A DNA stretch of 64,000 nt, taken from NCBI RefSeq assembly GCF_000150955.2, contig NC_011679.1, positions 124,001 through 188,000 of the forward strand, read 5' to 3'. The DNA is from Phaeodactylum tricornutum CCAP 1055/1 (lineage: Eukaryota > Bacillariophyta > Bacillariophyceae > Surirellales > Neidiaceae). The stretch's first letter is position 1, and every line of letters starts with the position of its first letter. The notes under the pieces were generated by a model that did not search any database, was not told where the DNA came from, and saw nothing but the letters and a program-made list of their open reading frames with translations. The translations under genes and the position numbers were made by a program. Positions 26,930 through 36,877 of this stretch are shown here, piece after piece.

Positions 26930-28250
26930 CTACGCCCAATCACACGGAGTCAAGTTGTTGGTGCCCAGCTCTTCGAGCTTTTGAAATGCCACGGTGAAAT
27001 CGTAATCAAATTTCTTTGGATTACTCGCATACTCCTTTACATACTTGGCGAAGGATTTGTCTTGCAGCAATACCAGGTCTGTCGGAAGCATCATGAGGCG
27101 ACCGGTGGGAGCATCCACGTATTGGTAAGGACCGTCCCACTCCTTGGGCACCCAATTGAGATTGGAAAGCAAAGTATAATACGCATTGTTGAAGGTAGTT
27201 GGAGTTGGAGTCCAAGGACCATCATACCCCGATGCTGTTGTGTGACAGCGGCCCAAAGCGTGCGCTCCAGAAAGGCAAACAATCTCTTGGTCGTTGAAAC
27301 CTATCAGAATCAGAAATAGTGTGTTGACTTGCTTGTAAGACACACATCGTAATCAAGACCTTGCGGATAGAAGATACTTTGTCAAGCGACGATACAGAGG
27401 AGAGGATTAATTAATAGCACGCCGAAAACGTACCCATACGATAAAAGACATCGCGCAAATGGGCGGCATCACTCTTGTCAGCCCCCTTGGGTCCGACATC
27501 GGCGTTCGGCAATCGTCCGTCTGGAGTGACCACAATCGGACTCATGGCGTCCACCCGTCCCGAGCCCCATGGAATAGTGGGGCCATTCATTTGCTTGATT
27601 GAAGCTACTCCCGAAAGAGTGTAGAGGTCTGCGTAGGATAACCCGTCCTTCTTGTACTTTTTATACAAAGGTTCCAGCCATACGACGGCTGTATCGGCGA
27701 GACCAGCGTTGCCACCATGCGCGAGTTCTTCTTTGAAGCGGATCGTTCCTTCCCCTGATCCTCCCGTTCTGGTAATTTGGTCGTACGTTCCCGACGAATG
27801 CCATGCCAACCGCACAAACGTGGGTCCCTGCGCGAGAATTGACAATAAGTGTTGGCAGGATGAGATGATACGGGGATTGTACGAGCTCACTGCGTGAAGA
27901 CCGGCTTTTCTTAGACTTTTGGACGGGACGAAGTCACTTACCTTGTCCGGATCCTGCTTGACCATGTCAGTGATATCCTTAGCCACAGCTTTGTAATTGA
28001 CAGTGGCAGCAGCACTGGCTGGTAGAGGTAAAAAAGTGTTTGCTACAAGTGCGGACGAGGAGAGTACGGTAGTCCAAAGAAAGGCCCGACGGCCATCCAC
28101 TCGTCCAGCTTCTAGTCCAGCTTCGGGGCAGCCGGGCTGAGCACCAAGCGCCAATACGGCGACGGGAGTCTTTCGGTACACCGCCTGAAAGGCCTGTGAG
28201 CCTCCCACAGAAAGAGCCGCAATAAAAGCAATAATCGTATAAATGTTCAT
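26930..28250 (-). CDS. Ascorbate peroxidase-like class I heme peroxidase, Tat-type thylakoid lumen targeting
   Basis: Reduces hydrogen peroxide, probably with ascorbate. Three exons: 28250-27942, 27827-27434, 27300-26930; introns 27828-27941 and 27301-27433; 357 aa. Signal peptide MNIYTIIAFIAALSVGGSQA is followed by FQAV (clear ASAF-type plastid entry). A second signal has twin Arg (GRRAFLWTTVLSSSALVA) and ends LPLPASAA, a Tat-type lumen signal. All catalytic residues are present: distal Arg-Trp-His in RLAWHSSGTYD, proximal His in LSGAHALGRCH, then GPWTPTP and LPTDLVLLQD with the conserved Asp. The first intron is a multiple of three without stops. Starts 260 bp from, and divergent to, the lumenal TPR gene. 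Confidence 0.92.
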
Positions 28251-28378
28251 GATTGGATGAAGCAGCAACAATCGGATTGTGAAGGAAGCAAACAAATCGT
28301 TTGCTAACTTGTAGTAGTGCGCACGATCCGCCCTTGGAAATCCGATCCAAAGATACCCCAATCGAGTTGACTGCTAAA

Positions 28379-28386: not shown

Positions 28387-28509
28387 CTACCGGGTTAGAT
28401 CCCTGCATCGTCTGTCGCAGTAAGAGCGCACCCGTCGCTTGTAATCCGATGCCAAAACTGATGGTCGCTCTGGGAGACTTGCTTATAGACGACAGACGAT
28501 AGTGAGTTC

Positions 28510-29526
28510 ATGGTGTCCAGAGGTACACCTACCGTGATGTCTCTGTTTAACCCCACTCTACTCTTTTCTCTCCTCTTGATATTTTTAAATGAATGGACCT
28601 TTGCTTTATCGGATACGCTTCTTCCAGCACGAAATGCACGTCGGTCGTTCCTCGCGACGGCCGCCGCCTCGGCAGTCACCGTGATTATACCGCCACACTC
28701 TGCTCATGCTGAAGAAATAGCGCTTACCGAAGTCCAAGCTGTGGCAACGGGAGACGCAAAAAAACTGTTCAATGAGGCCCGAGCGCTCGAGTCGCAAGGA
28801 AACATGGCTGCGGCCCAGCGGTTGTATACGAAAGTGACCAAGATTTCCCCTCGATTCATCTACGGGTGGTCCAATTTGGCTAATACGCAAACGGCTCTGG
28901 GTGATCTAAGATCTGCGGATCAGGCTTACTCTATCGCAATTGATCTTTGCAACGAAAATTTGCAAACGACAGAAGAAGGATTTGGCATAAAGAGGTGCAA
29001 TGATTTGTATGTGCTGTTACTGAATCGGGGTAGTCTACGTCTCAACGACGGCAGACCGAAAGAAGCCCTGGCGGATTTACAGCAATCGGACTTATTGCGC
29101 GGTCGACCGGATTCAACGGTGCTGCAGAACTTGGCGCGTGCCAAAGAACTCAACGGCCTCTACAAACAAGCTGACAATGATTACACGGTCGCCATTTCTA
29201 TGACAGCCAACGAGGTGAATCCCTTTTGGTTGCGATCATCTCTCGTTAAGTTTCAACTAGGTGATATTCAAGGAGGATACGATCTCATGAAACGCGTTGA
29301 AAACCGATTTCCGGAAGCTCCCGAAGTCCGTGCTGCCTACGCTTGTTTCTTGGCCGCCAGGGGAGATCAAGTTGCGGGACAACGAAAGTATTTGGAAATT
29401 CCGGACCGGGCCCGTCTCAAGTACGTCGACCAAAACTACTTGACCCGCACTATTTCCTGGCCACCCGCAGCCCGAGATACGCTAGCCAAGATTACGATGG
29501 CGTCGGGAGATGGATCGCCCAAGTAA
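28510..29526 (+). CDS. TPR protein, Tat-type thylakoid lumen targeting
   Basis: Single frame, 338 aa; an in-frame ATG at 28537 is an equally good start. First signal: SLFNPTLLFSLLLIFLNEWT before FALS, an ASAF-like plastid entry signal. Second signal: twin Arg in NARRSFLATAAASAVTV, ending HSAHAEE, a Tat-type lumen signal. The mature part (about 65-330) is built of tetratricopeptide repeats, e.g. AKKLFNEARALESQGNMAAA, YGWSNLANTQTALGDLRSAD and LLNRGSLRLNDGRPKEALAD. These resemble lumenal TPR proteins of plants with photosystem assembly or maintenance roles; the exact partner is unknown. Divergent from the lumenal APX gene. Confidence 0.88.
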   Translation: MVSRGTPTVMSLFNPTLLFSLLLIFLNEWTFALSDTLLPARNARRSFLATAAASAVTVIIPPHSAHAEEIALTEVQAVATGDAKKLFNEARALESQGNMAAAQRLYTKVTKISPRFIYGWSNLANTQTALGDLRSADQAYSIAIDLCNENLQTTEEGFGIKRCNDLYVLLLNRGSLRLNDGRPKEALADLQQSDLLRGRPDSTVLQNLARAKELNGLYKQADNDYTVAISMTANEVNPFWLRSSLVKFQLGDIQGGYDLMKRVENRFPEAPEVRAAYACFLAARGDQVAGQRKYLEIPDRARLKYVDQNYLTRTISWPPAARDTLAKITMASGDGSPK

Positions 29527-30133
29527 AACACAAACGTGGTCTCTTCGAAACACGTTTGTGCGCGTGCAGATCTGCTTGAACAGCTAGTTATTCTAGGAAG
29601 TAGAACTGAGTTTAGTTGTGGGGGATCAACGCATTTGACAACCAACGTGTGTACTTACTAATGCTGTACGACTTTCATTTTGCGGATGTTAGATACACTA
29701 ACGATGTGGCATAGTTAGTGGGTAGTTCTATCGGTCTGTGCGGCTGAATTAGAAGTAGCAGTAGAGGCGTGATGAATATGTTGAAAACTCAAATTTAGCT
29801 GGAGATGAGAGCTCGCTTTTTTTCAAATCTCTCTTTCTGCGACATATCTCTTTCTGCAGACATGTCACATTTGACTACCAAACTTGACATGAATGTCCTG
29901 CGCCAACAACGCGCGAACGACGTGAAATCCAAATTCGTGACCTGATTGGATTTCCGAAACGTACAGCTTCGATGAGGTGCATGTCTGGGACCACACAAGG
30001 TTCACGTGAAGCGTTGTTGAGATTCAAGAAAACATTTCCAATTTAGAGTTTTACCACTACGCGTCTACCTCCGATGTTCCAGAGCGCACGTTTGGAAGCA
30101 GAAGTGTAGGAGTTTCGTATTGTTAAAAGCGCA
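29527..30133. other. Intergenic, TPR to tRNA ligase
   Basis: About 605 bp between same-direction genes. A short direct duplication of TCTCTTTCTGC lies around 29827-29858. No gene supported. Confidence 0.5.
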
Positions 30134-33100
30134 ATGTCGTATGAAGCGCACCAGCCGATGGCCTCACAAACATTGAGAACAAGTGAAGACAAAGACCATC
30201 AGTCCGAACCCATGATGAAGAAAACAAAGCTTCGCACGGCCAAAGACGTGATGGATCGTTTACGGTGGGAAAACCCATCGGCAAGCCGTAGCATCATGAT
30301 CGGCTACGATGACCGCATAAATGGTCCGATGGAAATTTCCTTCCAGAAGTTTCAATCTATAAAAAATGGCGGGGATATCCCGGAACATCGGATTTTGTAC
30401 TTTCGAAACGTTGAGGCTTCGTCGTCCGACAGCAGAGGCTACGGTGAAATTGTCTGGGATCGAGCAGGACGTGTCGACAAAATCTTTACGCCGGAAGGAG
30501 ATTTGCGAGGAGACGTCTCGGCGGAAACGGAAACGGCGGCGCTTCAAGCCGTCGCGACTATGACACGTTTGGCGTAAGTCGTGCGATCGAACTAAAAAGG
30601 CGAATTTGTTGTTCCAGTCTCTGCGCGCTAGATGCTGACTCGGTGCTGCTGACTTTTCTAACATTCGACAGTGCGAAGGAAAAAGAAACACTATTTTTGA
30701 TGGAGCGAGCTCTGCTGGCCAAAGCCAATCGGTGTGAAATGGCCAAGGCGGCGTTAGAGAATATAAAGCGGGAAGAACATACGGGTTCTGGTAGGAAGCA
30801 AGCTAGTAAGACGACACCGGTTCATACCGGTAGTCCGTCACAGTCAGAATCGGGGAATGACCGCAAACGGCACTTCGAAGATGCATCGCATAAACCTGAA
30901 CCATGTGTATCAACCAGTACAATGGACACGATACCGCCCGAGACTATCCAGAGACTTCGATTGGAGGCAATCTTCCATCCAAAATTCGAAAACGAGAATC
31001 GCAATGACCAGTCTGTTCGGGAACAAATGAAGCAACGAGTAGCATCGCATTCGGGGTACCTGGAAGTTACGTTGAAACACTCAGGATCGCTACTGTTATG
31101 GAGTGGACAACAGCGCTACTACAGCAAGAATTCGACCGATAATCGTTTTACCGCAGTTGGAGAAATTCTACTGAGGCAGCATTTTGTGCGAAGCTTTTGG
31201 AACGATGCCATTGATGCCACGGCAGACAAAGGAATGAAAAATTTGATGCAGGAACGAATGTATAAAGCATGCAGTGACTTTGTGGAATCCAATCGCTTGA
31301 CGCTTGCTTTTGAAGTGGTAACATCCGTTTTAGGTGACCACGGTGCGCGACCTAAACGCGATTTTTTGATATTGACTGCTGTTGCCGACCGATCGAATGA
31401 ACGTTTTTACTCGACCTCGGAACTTGTAGAGTTTGCCCATCAGTTTCGTCTACCACACAATGATTCCTGGGTTTTTGCATCGCCTCAGAGTGTAGACGAT
31501 CTCTTTGCGTCTTACGACTCTTCGCGAGAACGTGGACTTGCCAGTGGTGTAGTCGCTAGTTTGTCGCAAGCTGCTGAAGCTCAGGTGGCCAGCCTATACC
31601 CTCACATCGATTTTCAGGGTGAAATCATCGAAGGACTTGTGATTCGATTTGTTTCTTACCGTGATCGCCTGACTATGCTACGAACGATTCAACGACTGTC
31701 GCGTACGTCAAAAGACCTGACGGAAAAGGTGCCACCGTCTCTTCCCAACTGCGTAGAGTTGATATTGTCGAAATCTGATCCGTTCTCGTTGGTTCTAAGG
31801 ACTGACGTTCGATCATTATTCCATGAATCTGCTAAAAATCAAACCCACTCCACTGCTGCATTTGAACGTCTACTCCAATCTACATTATCTCTTGGTGAGG
31901 TTCGAAGAAAGATGAATCGAGTGTCCCGATCGGAAAGCATCGACATACCGGCCTTAGCAAAAGAATTGGAGAATTCAGAAAATAGAGAGACTCAGCGTAT
32001 TGCCAAACTGATATCTACATTGACTGGAATCAACGCACGGGTCGACTATTCTGTGATGGAAGAATCAATTGAAAATGGCGATTCTTCAGAATCAAGATGG
32101 TTATTCATGCTTCATGTTATACATGATGCCACATTTCCAAAGTTTCAACGCAATATGAGTGAAGGCGACATGCCTTTATTCCGCGGTTTCGCTGTTGAGC
32201 TATGTAACGACCAGACCTCAAGTTTGAAGCAAACTTTGTTAGGGGTTTCAGAAAGGTCTGAAAGCAGTCAGAATAGTGATGGGGAACTTCTGATGCTCAA
32301 GATGAAGTTTCTTCCCTACATGGTACGGCAAAGCAATGCCATCGTTGAAACGATTGCCTTATGTCGATCTCATCGACCACGAAACGCAATGACTTGTCTT
32401 ACAGTAAATTTGAACTTCTGTGTTCATCTTAGGTTCGGACATTCGGGTGTCGGAATGGATTGCGAAGCCTGCGACAAGGTGGATCAGAATCCTTTGTCCA
32501 GTATACCAATTCGATGCTGACGAAATGGCAGGTGTCGAAAGATGCCAAAGACACATGGGGACCTTTTTTCAAAGCATGGGCAATGTACGCGAAGGATTGG
32601 CTCGCAGCTCGTCCTATCGGAGAAGCCAACAAGTGTTTTCCGCTCCTGAACGACTTCAACTATCTAGATCATTTGGAGCGATTTCTTGAAATGTACGAAT
32701 CCGGATTATTTGCCGCTGCAACAGAAACGGCGACCAAGTCTTCTCTGAGCGGGTTGACTGTTGTTGTGGCGCCAGATCGCTCAATATCTCGAGTAGTTGC
32801 CGACTTCATTGCGCATGAACTTGGAGGTGCAGCTCGCATCGACGATCTCAACCGGATCACCGTTGACAAGTTGGCTGATATGTGTGCACCGGGACTTGGA
32901 GCAGTGTGTAGTGCTGTGGTTGCCGATGGCATTGGCCAGCTTCGAAGATTGACGAAAGACCACGCCGACAGTATCTCTTTAGTGTTTTTCCAATGCTCTG
33001 AGGAAGGCATCCGAAGCCTTTTCCTTCCAGAAAAAGAGATAAAGAAGACGATGGGTATGCTCAATGGATGGCGAAAAACAATATGCTCTTATAAAGTCGA

Positions 33101-34691
33101 GCTGTCTCGTTCCTCTTTGATTGATGTAGAGCCAATGGAAACTGACGAAGGCTGTCGCTTGATGCCGTCGGAGAATTTTATAGAGGTTTTGTCTCGGCTT
33201 CGCACCGCTGCTGTCGATGCCGCGGATGAATCCGCAGGGGCCTTGCTCTTCTTTCCAGGCATACCGGGATGCGGTAAATCGAGTTTGACTTGCACAGAAG
33301 TCCAAGGCGAACTTCAATCTTCTCTGAAGCAGCGAAACCATCCTTGCGAATTGATAGTGAAGGTCGGTGACCAGACTAGAGGCAAATTTTGGCAAGTTGT
33401 AAAGCATGAACGAGCAAAGCGTAAGGCATCCCTCTACATTGTCGACAAAAACGTACCCGCTTCGACCTGGGAAACAGTGGCAGACGTCTGTGGAAGCACA
33501 AATGCTGTTGGCATCCCAGTCTTACCCGATGCTGTGTCCTTGGCAACGACGAGAGTAAAGGGCCTACGTAGACCAGATGGCGCAATCGTGGAAGAAAAGG
33601 TACACGTTTACCCTTTCTCGCTCCGGTATCTTGCTCTTTGTATGGCGCGAGTGTTGTCAAGAACTCCGTCTTCTCACATAGGCAAACTGGATCGGGGTAC
33701 AAAGCGAGCGTGTATGGTGGTGATCAAGTTCTTTTGCTTGTATCGCCGAATAGCGTCTCATGAGTTACTTGACTCGATCAGTGCAAAGTTTAACACTGTT
33801 GGAGCGACGGTATCGCCGATTACCGTGTCTGTGTTAAAATCTAGTTCTAAAAGCCTTCCAGGCGATTTAGAGTCGCTGCTTATGGAGGCTCTGCGGGCTC
33901 AATTTGGTTACGACCTCGCCAGAGGCAGTAGCGATACGACAAAGACGAACGATTCTTACCTGGATGCACTGGAGGATCAGCTGCGCCAATCCATTGACAC
34001 ACATTTAGCAGCGATCTACGACATGGCTGCAGACGAACAAATATCGCGAGGAATGTTTGTCAAAGGATTTTTAGATCGTATTGCGCAATTGGATTCCGTG
34101 GAACCAAAGGCCTCGATCTTGACCAACTGCTTTCCTCCCACACCGTCTTTCTATAAGATTGCTTCCTTTGATGTTGACGTAGATGAAGTCCACAAAGTCG
34201 TCCTGAAAGTGGCAAAGGATGCGCGGTTGTCGGTTCTAATGGAAGCAATCGTGGGCTCCCGTTCGGCCGCGAACGTGTGGACTGGTAGGTCGAGTGTCAA
34301 TGCAGATCTTATTCGCAACACTCACGTAACGATGCTGCATTGCGAAGAAACAACTCAGGAAGAGATGGAGGCAGCGTTTGGTGCGCTGTGCGGCTGTCGG
34401 GGCACCATTCAAGTGGTTGGCCTGCTATGGAGTCCGACTGTAGCGGCACTCGCCGTCGCTTTACCGGAGAAGACGGAGTGCGGGTACGATGTTCCTGCGT
34501 GCCGTAATGAGTTTGCCCATATCACAATTTGGTGCGCTACGGGCCAGGAAACCAAAGCGGCGAACGACTTGCCGCATCTGGCAGCGAACGGGTCCGCGAC
34601 ACGGGTCGATTTTGCGAGATGCTTCCCGTTGGTGGGCACAATCGCGCTTTGGTCCGACAGGAAAACATCCAAAGGGATTGAAGAGAAGTGA
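30134..34691 (+). CDS. Plant-type tRNA ligase (RNL/TRL1) with N-terminal MJ1316 domain
   Basis: Joins tRNA halves after intron removal and may act in unfolded-protein-response mRNA splicing. Exons 30134-30573, 30672-32322, 32433-34691; introns 30574-30671 and 32323-32432; the joins keep phase, giving 1449 aa. Domains: MJ1316/DUF504 RNA-end recognition domain (about 33-119: SIMIGYDDRINGPMEIS, DIPEHRILYF, GEIVWDRAGRVDKIF). Plant-type ligase domain with nucleotidyl Lys282 in LKHSGSLLLW, then LVTSVLGDHGARP and GEIIEGLVIRFVS. Polynucleotide kinase P-loop FFPGIPGCGKSSL (about 972-985). C-terminal cyclic phosphodiesterase with two HxT motifs, HVTML (about 1328) and HITIW (about 1393). Similarity is to plant RNL rather than the bacterial or RtcB type. 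The MJ1316 domain is an addition. Confidence 0.93.
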
Positions 34692-35452
34692 CCAATAGGT
34701 AGATACTTGAAACGCTTTGTGAAAACATGTTAGATACACCCATATTTTATTGGTATATACGTAGTTGAAAAAGAAGGACGACACTATGGGCTTCAGGGAC
34801 AGACTTGCAAGCGAATAATGGAAGTCGCATCTTTAAGTGGAAATGCTTTTAGACAGTCACTATAGAAGGTATTTACCCAATGATCTTCTATTTCCCTATG
34901 ACACTTTTTGTATTTTTCATGGTAATGAGAATACCCATTCACGCTTTGACTACAATAGGAGCGTCTTGGGCTTCATCACATTAATCATTGATCGATTTCT
35001 CCGGTTTGTTTTTCCGAATCCAAGTAACTGTAAATATAAAAAAATATTTTAGATCACACACAATACCGCATATTTTTCGAAACAGGCTATTTCTGATCGG
35101 TGAGAAAATACAGTCCCGTACGTGGAAAACAGAGCCGGACTTACTGTTGCGTTATAGCTGGAGAGGGGCTTCCCTTTTTAAATCTAATGTCAGAACGCGA
35201 CTGTATTTCACAGTCAGCGTCAACCACCGAAACATTCTGCCATCATGCGAGGGCCCTTAAGACTTATGGTGTGATTCACGAACAGCTGAGGTTTTCGAAC
35301 CAGGATAGTACGCGGGATCGTTTTCCTCGACTACTCAAAGCATATGTGATTGTAAGCAACATCCAGTCGGAGGAGGAATTCCTCTCACAATTCTCGGCAC
35401 ACTTTTGGTGCACACTCCAAAAACAAGAGCAAACTCTTTGTAACATCCAACC
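34692..35452. other. Intergenic, AT-rich
   Basis: About 760 bp, locally AT-rich. Holds TTCACAGTCA (35207-35216), a copy of the recurrent motif, about 240 bp upstream of the secreted VWD protein. Short frames show no family features. Confidence 0.5.
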
Positions 35453-36877
35453 ATGCCATCTTACTTCACCTTGCCAATTCTCGTCGTCCTCTTGAGCAGC
35501 ATGGCTCCTGTTTCAACGAGCTACCAGTGTGAGCTACCCAAGGAATTCAGCATCTACTCCGTTATTTCGAAGGAAGACGCGTCCATCGGTGCGCACAGTA
35601 TGTACAAGGGCGTGGCTGTCGGAGGGACTCTTTCCGATGGAACTCCTGACAGTAGCGCCACATTTGATCGCACTACGTCCCGAGTCAAAGCACTTGCCAA
35701 CCCCAACAGATTTAATTTCAATGGAGGCATCGAGACGGGGGTTTCCCTTGAAACCTCTGTCGACTTTGGCCACTTTGAATGGCTGGCTGGTGCAGCCAAG
35801 AGTGGTGATTTTGAGGGCGGCAAAAAAGTTGTTGTCCTGACAAAAGGGGGAACTTACAATCTCTACGATTTTCGAAATGGGGGTCAAGGTGAAGACAATG
35901 GAAACACGATCGTCATTTTCAATACCAGCGACGACGTTATCTTGACTAAAACTCACGATGGACGTCAGTTCGGACCTTCTGTCATTGCCCCATTCTCCAA
36001 GGTCATTGTTTTGGGAAATGCTGGTTTTGTGGATGGAACTATTGTGGGCAAGCAAGTTGTTACCAGTGGTGGCAATCAGGGACAGCTCCAATTGCATGGA
36101 GACAACTATAACGGCCCTTTTGTATGCGGGGTCAACCCTGGTAGTGGTGGAGATCCTCATTTCAAGACTTGGTTGGGTCGACGTTATGATTTCCACCACC
36201 AGTGTGATCTACTGCTTGTCAAAAGCGAGTCGTTTATGGAAGGAAAGGGTCTAGAAGTTCAAATCCGGACGACTTCCAAGAGCTCCTTTTCCTACATTAG
36301 TGGTGTTGCTGTTCGCATTGGTCGCGATGTCTTGGAAATTAGCCAAACAGAGCATTTCTACAACGGCAGCCAGGACTATGACCTCACCAAAGCTCGCATA
36401 GGCGGATACTCGGTCGAGATTACATATTCCCTCAAATCCTCCACTTCCTTTGTGCGGAATTACGTTATTGAGATCTCGCCTTCCTTCATAATTGTCGTAA
36501 TCGTCCGCAAGAACTTGATGGAAGTCCGCTTCCACGGCGCGGATGAAAACTTAATCGGAGATAGCGTCGGCATGTTGGGAGAATACCGCAATGGCACGCT
36601 CCTCTCGAGATCCGGCATCGAAATCGAGGATCTCTCCGAGTTTGGAAACGAATGGCAGGTTAACTACGCCGATTCGGCACTCTTCAGTTCCACACAGAGC
36701 CCCCAGTTCCCCCAGAAGTGTACCCCACCGGCGCCAGTCGACCAAGCACGTTACCTCCGTCACGGCATCAGCCTCGCCCAAGCGGAAAAGGCCTGCGAAG
36801 GGTGGGGAGAAGAAATGGACGATTGTGTGTTTGACGTCATGGCTACCGGTGACATTGACGTTGCTTTCGCCTTTTGA
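35453..36877 (+). CDS. Secreted choice-of-anchor A / VWD-like domain protein
   Basis: Single frame, 474 aa, probably extracellular. Signal peptide (PSYFTLPILVVLLSSMAPVS). Residues about 30-225 resemble the choice-of-anchor A / collagen-binding-like beta domain (YSVISKEDASIGAHSMYKG, AVGGTLSDG, VIVLGNAGFVDGTIVGKQV). Residues about 232-400 are VWD-like, beginning GGDPHFKTWLGRRYDFHHQC with later HGADENLIGDSVGMLGEY. The last about 50 residues keep the Cys-rich C8-like ending (AEKACEGWGEEMDDCVFDVM). Such combinations suggest a cell-surface adhesive or wall-associated protein. The role is inferred; there is no enzyme motif. Confidence 0.85.
   Translation: MPSYFTLPILVVLLSSMAPVSTSYQCELPKEFSIYSVISKEDASIGAHSMYKGVAVGGTLSDGTPDSSATFDRTTSRVKALANPNRFNFNGGIETGVSLETSVDFGHFEWLAGAAKSGDFEGGKKVVVLTKGGTYNLYDFRNGGQGEDNGNTIVIFNTSDDVILTKTHDGRQFGPSVIAPFSKVIVLGNAGFVDGTIVGKQVVTSGGNQGQLQLHGDNYNGPFVCGVNPGSGGDPHFKTWLGRRYDFHHQCDLLLVKSESFMEGKGLEVQIRTTSKSSFSYISGVAVRIGRDVLEISQTEHFYNGSQDYDLTKARIGGYSVEITYSLKSSTSFVRNYVIEISPSFIIVVIVRKNLMEVRFHGADENLIGDSVGMLGEYRNGTLLSRSGIEIEDLSEFGNEWQVNYADSALFSSTQSPQFPQKCTPPAPVDQARYLRHGISLAQAEKACEGWGEEMDDCVFDVMATGDIDVAFAF

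Follow-up and report, generated by a model that had tools for sequence, protein, structure and literature searches.

LENG9-type proteins carry an MJ1316 domain together with a 2H domain and have neither a ligase nor a kinase. A second arrangement, in which MJ1316 is joined to a C12orf65-like release factor, is described by Burroughs & Aravind (2019; PMC6514570), a paper which also states, citing another paper, that MJ1316 recognizes the 2',3'-cyclic ends of RNA. We found no experimental test of this recognition in the literature searched and, as far as we have seen, the end-binding role of MJ1316 is a printed statement that has not been traced to a test. Fusions that pair MJ1316 with RNA-repair domains are already known from the literature, but a fusion of MJ1316 to a tRNA ligase was not found in the literature searched, which left out the most relevant paper. 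Here, we describe such a fusion, predicted from a 64,000-nucleotide stretch of the Phaeodactylum tricornutum genome (hereafter the window), in which an MJ1316 domain and a short helical tail precede a complete tRNA ligase (Table 1).

Table 1. Predicted gene, exons, introns and protein domains, in window coordinates.
Feature	Position	Strand	Description
Predicted gene	30134..34691	+	Three exons giving 1449 residues plus stop; one frame after joining
Exon 1	30134..30573	+	440 nt; runs from the start codon through the N-terminus and MJ1316 domain into the helical tail
Intron 1	30574..30671	+	98 nt, phase 2, GT...AG; interrupts conserved tail
Exon 2	30672..32322	+	Remainder of tail, a variable linker and the ligase domain as far as motif V; open frame 30448-32520
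Intron 2	32323..32432	+	110 nt, phase 0; splicing restores conserved run KMKFLPYM-VRTFxCRN
Exon 3	32433..34691	+	Last part of the ligase domain, then the kinase and phosphodiesterase domains and the stop codon; open frame 752 aa
MJ1316 domain	30233..30487	+	Residues 34-118 (Pfam match 34-110); contains IGYDDR, IPEHRI, WDRxxRxDxxF
Helical tail	30509..30780	+	Residues 126-183, split by intron 1
Ligase (nucleotidyltransferase) domain	30943..32702	+	About residues 238-787, spanning intron 2; K282 in motif I, E467-G468 in motif IV, K690-x-K692 in motif V
P-loop polynucleotide kinase domain	33219..34100	+	About residues 960-1253, with D1035-K1036-N1037 and a Walker A motif in the stretch 970-981
2H cyclic phosphodiesterase domain	34107..34658	+	About residues 1256-1439; HVT 1328-1330, HIT 1393-1395

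The open frame of exon 1 spans 30110-30577, with an in-frame stop directly upstream of the start. Intron 1 begins with the donor GTAAGT at 30574 and ends in a CAG acceptor, with a CTAAC-like branch site identified by eye; if it is retained, a TAA is reached at once. The junction of exons 1 and 2, at residue 147, falls within the stretch matched by our model of the tail, and that of exons 2 and 3 (residues 697/698) falls within KMKFLPYM-VRTFGCRN, most residues of which are invariant across 28 relatives. The initial annotation had proposed one gene of three exons in phase, and the joined frame, the conserved motif at intron 2 and the tail match over intron 1 all bear this out. At the level of the predicted protein, it is confirmed that MJ1316 and the ligase are encoded by a single gene. 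The neighbouring frames, as judged by eye, resemble an ascorbate peroxidase (27411-28373, minus strand), a TPR protein (28489-29526, plus strand) and a secreted protein (35444-36877, plus strand), and none of the three has an evident link to RNA repair.

The Pfam model of MJ1316 (PF04457) matches residues 34-110 of the joined protein with an E-value of 2.5e-11 and a score of 44.5 bits, compared with a curated cut-off of 26.3. The domain suggested earlier at about residues 33-119 is upheld by this match, which excludes the lack of an MJ1316 profile hit and on which a false domain call was rejected. A six-frame search of the organism's own genome also matches the MJ1316 domain of exon 1, at 49.3 bits, and an AF2 model of exon 1 has a mean pLDDT of 78.2; no relative of MJ1316 with a solved structure was found by sequence or by fold. 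Six MJ1316 domains share 24 invariant columns, and nine domains drawn from two architectures share 20, of which 13 are also present, in an alignment inspected by eye, in a release-factor fusion. One further MJ1316 match occurs elsewhere in the genome (27.45 Mb, 88 contigs). This second match (L002, 709-2292, minus strand; G000:C1, around 1496494-1496712) lies in a frame of 527 residues in which a GGQ release-factor-like stretch can be recognized by eye.

A tail model built from the other five fused ligases aligns with residues 126-183 (58 residues) of the window protein at 20.8 bits, whereas the best of 200 shuffles, used as the control, scored 7.5. The sole gap in the match is of one residue and lies well after the residue 147 junction. 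Within the tail a helix is modelled at residues 130-145 in the AF2 model of exon 1. The same tail is found in three proteins of a different type (P0121-P0123, described below) at 18.0-25.2 bits, and a fragment of it scores 14.1 bits in P0003, a ligase from whose gene model MJ1316 is absent. A tail piece in P0005 reaches 6.6 bits, which is within the shuffle range.

The catalytic Pfam models score below their cut-offs in the window protein (RNA_lig_T4_1, 24.4 versus 28.3 bits; tRNA_lig_CPD, 15.3 versus 23 bits) and none of the kinase models matches. The profile search of the joined protein that had been suggested as a check is positive for PF04457 and below cut-off for the ligase and CPD models, and we based the assignment of the catalytic domains on the sequences of relatives and on the fold of one of them, P0017. 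The same ligase and CPD models match ten and 17, respectively, of 28 chosen relatives at an E-value of 0.01. Among the matches listed, the best relative is 40% identical and covers 97% of the protein (E = 0), and the window protein keeps 90 of the 91 columns which are invariant in the 28. P0017 folds into ligase, kinase and phosphodiesterase domains; the tRNA-ligase structures matched by this fold are fungal, which leaves the plant-type assignment of the initial annotation tentative. The features that define the ligase of Trl1 and RNL enzymes are present, namely the motif I lysine, the motif IV glutamate, the motif V Lys-x-Lys and, as judged from a relative, the Trl1 fold, as are a P-loop kinase domain and a 2H phosphodiesterase with two H-x-T/S motifs. 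The relatives, the invariant columns and the P0017 fold together support the earlier claim of a complete ligase-kinase-phosphodiesterase. Neither PF03372 (EEP) nor PF04928 (PAP) is among the four families matched in the window protein at E-values up to 1. We note that five relatives (P0004, P0007, P0008, P0009 and P0094) have, before a second methionine, a hydrophobic N-terminal leader with the look, by eye, of plastid or secretory targeting; such predicted leaders hint that the tRNA ligase may be dually targeted.

Partners of a tRNA-splicing ligase are encoded in the genome. The Tpt1 2'-phosphotransferase is matched by PF01885 at 2.6e-56, and the tRNA endonuclease family has two matches. RtcB gives no match in this genome in a search that matches nine of 14 control genomes, and no second copy of the ligase was found; a search with the PF09511 family matched nowhere, the window gene included, and is uninformative on other ligases. 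From these predictions, the window enzyme looks like the only candidate tRNA-splicing ligase found in the genome. There are at least 51 tRNA matches, and the eight longest were examined using ARAGORN with introns allowed. Introns were called in the tRNAs for Ser(CGA) (22 nt), Trp (24 nt), Met (14 nt), Tyr (14 nt) and Gln(CTG) (13 nt) (L040, L041, L043, L044 and L045); the unusual intron called in one Ala tRNA is probably spurious, and no intron was called in one Arg and one Leu tRNA. Given intron-bearing tRNA genes and the pathway partners, splicing of pre-tRNAs very likely occurs. An IRE1-type RNase domain (2.4e-33; G000:C6:949549-949926; L009, L048) is found within an open frame of 1465 codons, and this RNase may provide the ligase with a second supply of substrates.

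PF04457 was found in five of 120 relatives among the matches listed (120 of 361), at the same position in the alignment; these five represent clusters of one, two, seven, eight and one sequences. A Pfam rescan of four of the five returned PF04457 in each, P0006 lying barely over the cut-off (26.6 versus 26.3). With a profile of nine MJ1316 domains, six of 121 ligases among the matches listed are positive, including the window protein, and the next ligase scores 3.3 bits. The remaining 115 predicted ligases are without MJ1316, although some of their models may be incomplete, and the domain is therefore probably not needed for ligation. A further database search used a profile made from these five other fused ligases, and the same five alone bear PF04457 among the matches listed (120 of 551); the eight proteins new in this search (P0124-P0131) were judged by precomputed Pfam annotation only. 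A search with MJ1316 alone, from which 28 candidates were scored, missed the five fused ligases and is not a census.

In a tree of the 121 ligases, from which the MJ1316 portion of the fused rows had been removed, the six fused rows fall inside one group of 12 with an SH-aLRT support of 96. The fused label requires five changes on this tree, of which supported branches force at least three, and 38 of 500 shuffles do equally well (mean 5.9). In a 33-row tree of chosen sequences, a group of nine rows supported at 100/99 includes five of the fused rows. The window protein is not firmly placed in this tree, and the 12 rows form one side of a branch in 23% of 200 bootstrap trees; here the label requires four changes, with 24 of 500 shuffles as low. 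Half of the 12 rows lack MJ1316 in their gene models, which may reflect either truncation of the models or true loss. On these trees the fusion may have arisen once or several times.

The search with the window MJ1316 alone found three proteins (P0121-P0123) in which MJ1316 is accompanied by EEP and by a 2H match below cut-off, with PAP_central in two of the three; the taxid attached to P0122 is that of the diatom genus Odontella. Their MJ1316 domains are 47-59% identical to that of the window protein. Over exon 1 as a whole the identity is 45-54% with these proteins and 34-42% with the five other fused ligases, and this greater nearness to the EEP proteins argues against a simple single origin. 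A tree of the MJ1316 core plus tail nonetheless separates the ligases from the EEP proteins (91/96; 98% of 200 bootstrap trees), whereas with the core alone the separation appears in 26% of 200 bootstrap trees. No MJ1316-EEP-2H-PAP gene was found in this genome, where the search matches exon 1 alone. MJ1316 and its tail were probably acquired as a unit, and the source may perhaps have been an MJ1316-EEP-2H-PAP gene that contributed its 5' exons; we regard this idea of a donor as weak.

The interpretation given in the initial annotation is partly supported. With no other ligase found and the partners present, ordinary tRNA splicing is the first role suggested by the genome context. In our view the best explanation, to which we give an even chance of being correct, is that the window gene encodes a housekeeping healing-and-sealing tRNA ligase bearing at its front an acquired MJ1316-tail unit, with MJ1316 acting as a tethered RNA-end binder. 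The tRNA-splicing endonuclease would cleave intron-containing pre-tRNAs to leave 2',3'-cyclic phosphate and 5'-OH ends, after which the 2H domain would convert the cyclic phosphate to a 3'-OH/2'-phosphate, the kinase domain would phosphorylate the 5' end, the ligase domain would seal the halves and Tpt1 would then remove the 2'-phosphate. MJ1316 would most likely keep the cyclic phosphate end close to the 2H and ligase sites, so that more of the cut RNA is captured.

It is possible, though doubtful, that the enzyme is, as the initial annotation suggested, an RNA-repair ligase in which MJ1316 widens the substrates beyond tRNA splicing to tRNAs, rRNAs and mRNAs broken by damage, nuclease attack or IRE1-type cleavage. 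Other MJ1316 fusions do join RNA-end or rescue domains (EEP-2H-PAP, and the release-factor-like GGQ protein of the same genome), an IRE1-type RNase is present and the EEP-2H-PAP protein was not found here. Against this, the role is a prediction from sequence, the sole ligase found presumably serves tRNA splicing, and MJ1316 is missing from 115 of the 121 related predicted ligases among the matches listed. We consider it unlikely that MJ1316 now lacks end specificity and serves as a structural cap or as a general tether for RNA or tRNA. The modelled part of the tail is helical, the stretch preceding the ligase is long and variable, and no biochemistry of MJ1316 was found in the literature searched, all of which would suit such a role; but the signature residues kept across two architectures point to a specific site that has been retained. 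A distinctly unlikely, more elaborate proposal is that a diatom lineage joined 5' exons taken from an MJ1316-EEP-2H-PAP gene for RNA-end processing to its sole tRNA ligase and lost the rest of that gene, which would have given a dual ligase for tRNA splicing and the repair of RNA damage that finds 2',3'-cyclic phosphate ends via MJ1316. A functionless passenger domain is quite improbable: its apparent absence from those 115 of 121 predicted relatives among the matches listed, and the tail fragment kept without it in the P0003 model, would fit, but the signature residues are preserved in fused proteins that are only about 40% identical overall. Most improbable is a pair of genes, in which exon 1 would encode a separate MJ1316 protein, about 147 residues long, while the ligase would begin in exon 2; the immediate stop in a retained intron 1 and the models of six close relatives, which begin after the MJ1316 domain, would agree with this, but the splice sites match the consensus, and we judged the reading unlikely on the grounds that tail homology crosses the exon 1/exon 2 junction gap-free and that both parts lie within one predicted protein in five relatives.

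The arrangement matters in that a domain named for recognizing RNA cyclic ends sits on an enzyme whose substrate bears exactly such an end. The ligase is easily assayed and apparently single-copy, so that mutating or deleting MJ1316 would test the guessed role directly. If the role is correct, it would show how domain capture can equip a splicing ligase for recognizing RNA ends and perhaps for repair.

Compared with fungal Trl1 and plant RNL, the window protein has the same order of domains on one chain, with the ligase first, the P-loop kinase next and the 2H phosphodiesterase last; it shares their catalytic residues, and the fold of a relative matches the fungal enzymes. It differs from both in about 240 extra N-terminal residues, comprising MJ1316 and the tail, and in its Pfam scores, which lie below the cut-offs. 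Family members that lack MJ1316, of which those labelled by organism are diatoms, are 31-50% identical to it over 49-87% of the protein among the matches listed, and differ in the absence of MJ1316 from their predicted sequences. The MJ1316-EEP-2H-PAP proteins resemble it in an N-terminal MJ1316 followed by the same helical tail, but have EEP, a weak 2H and, in two of three, PAP where the window protein has the ligase and kinase. The C12orf65-like fusion, as described in PMC6514570, is similar in that MJ1316 is joined to an RNA-rescue domain, and the second MJ1316 frame of this genome resembles it. The release-factor fusion differs in its GGQ domain, as recognized by eye, and is 20% identical to the window protein over the aligned part.
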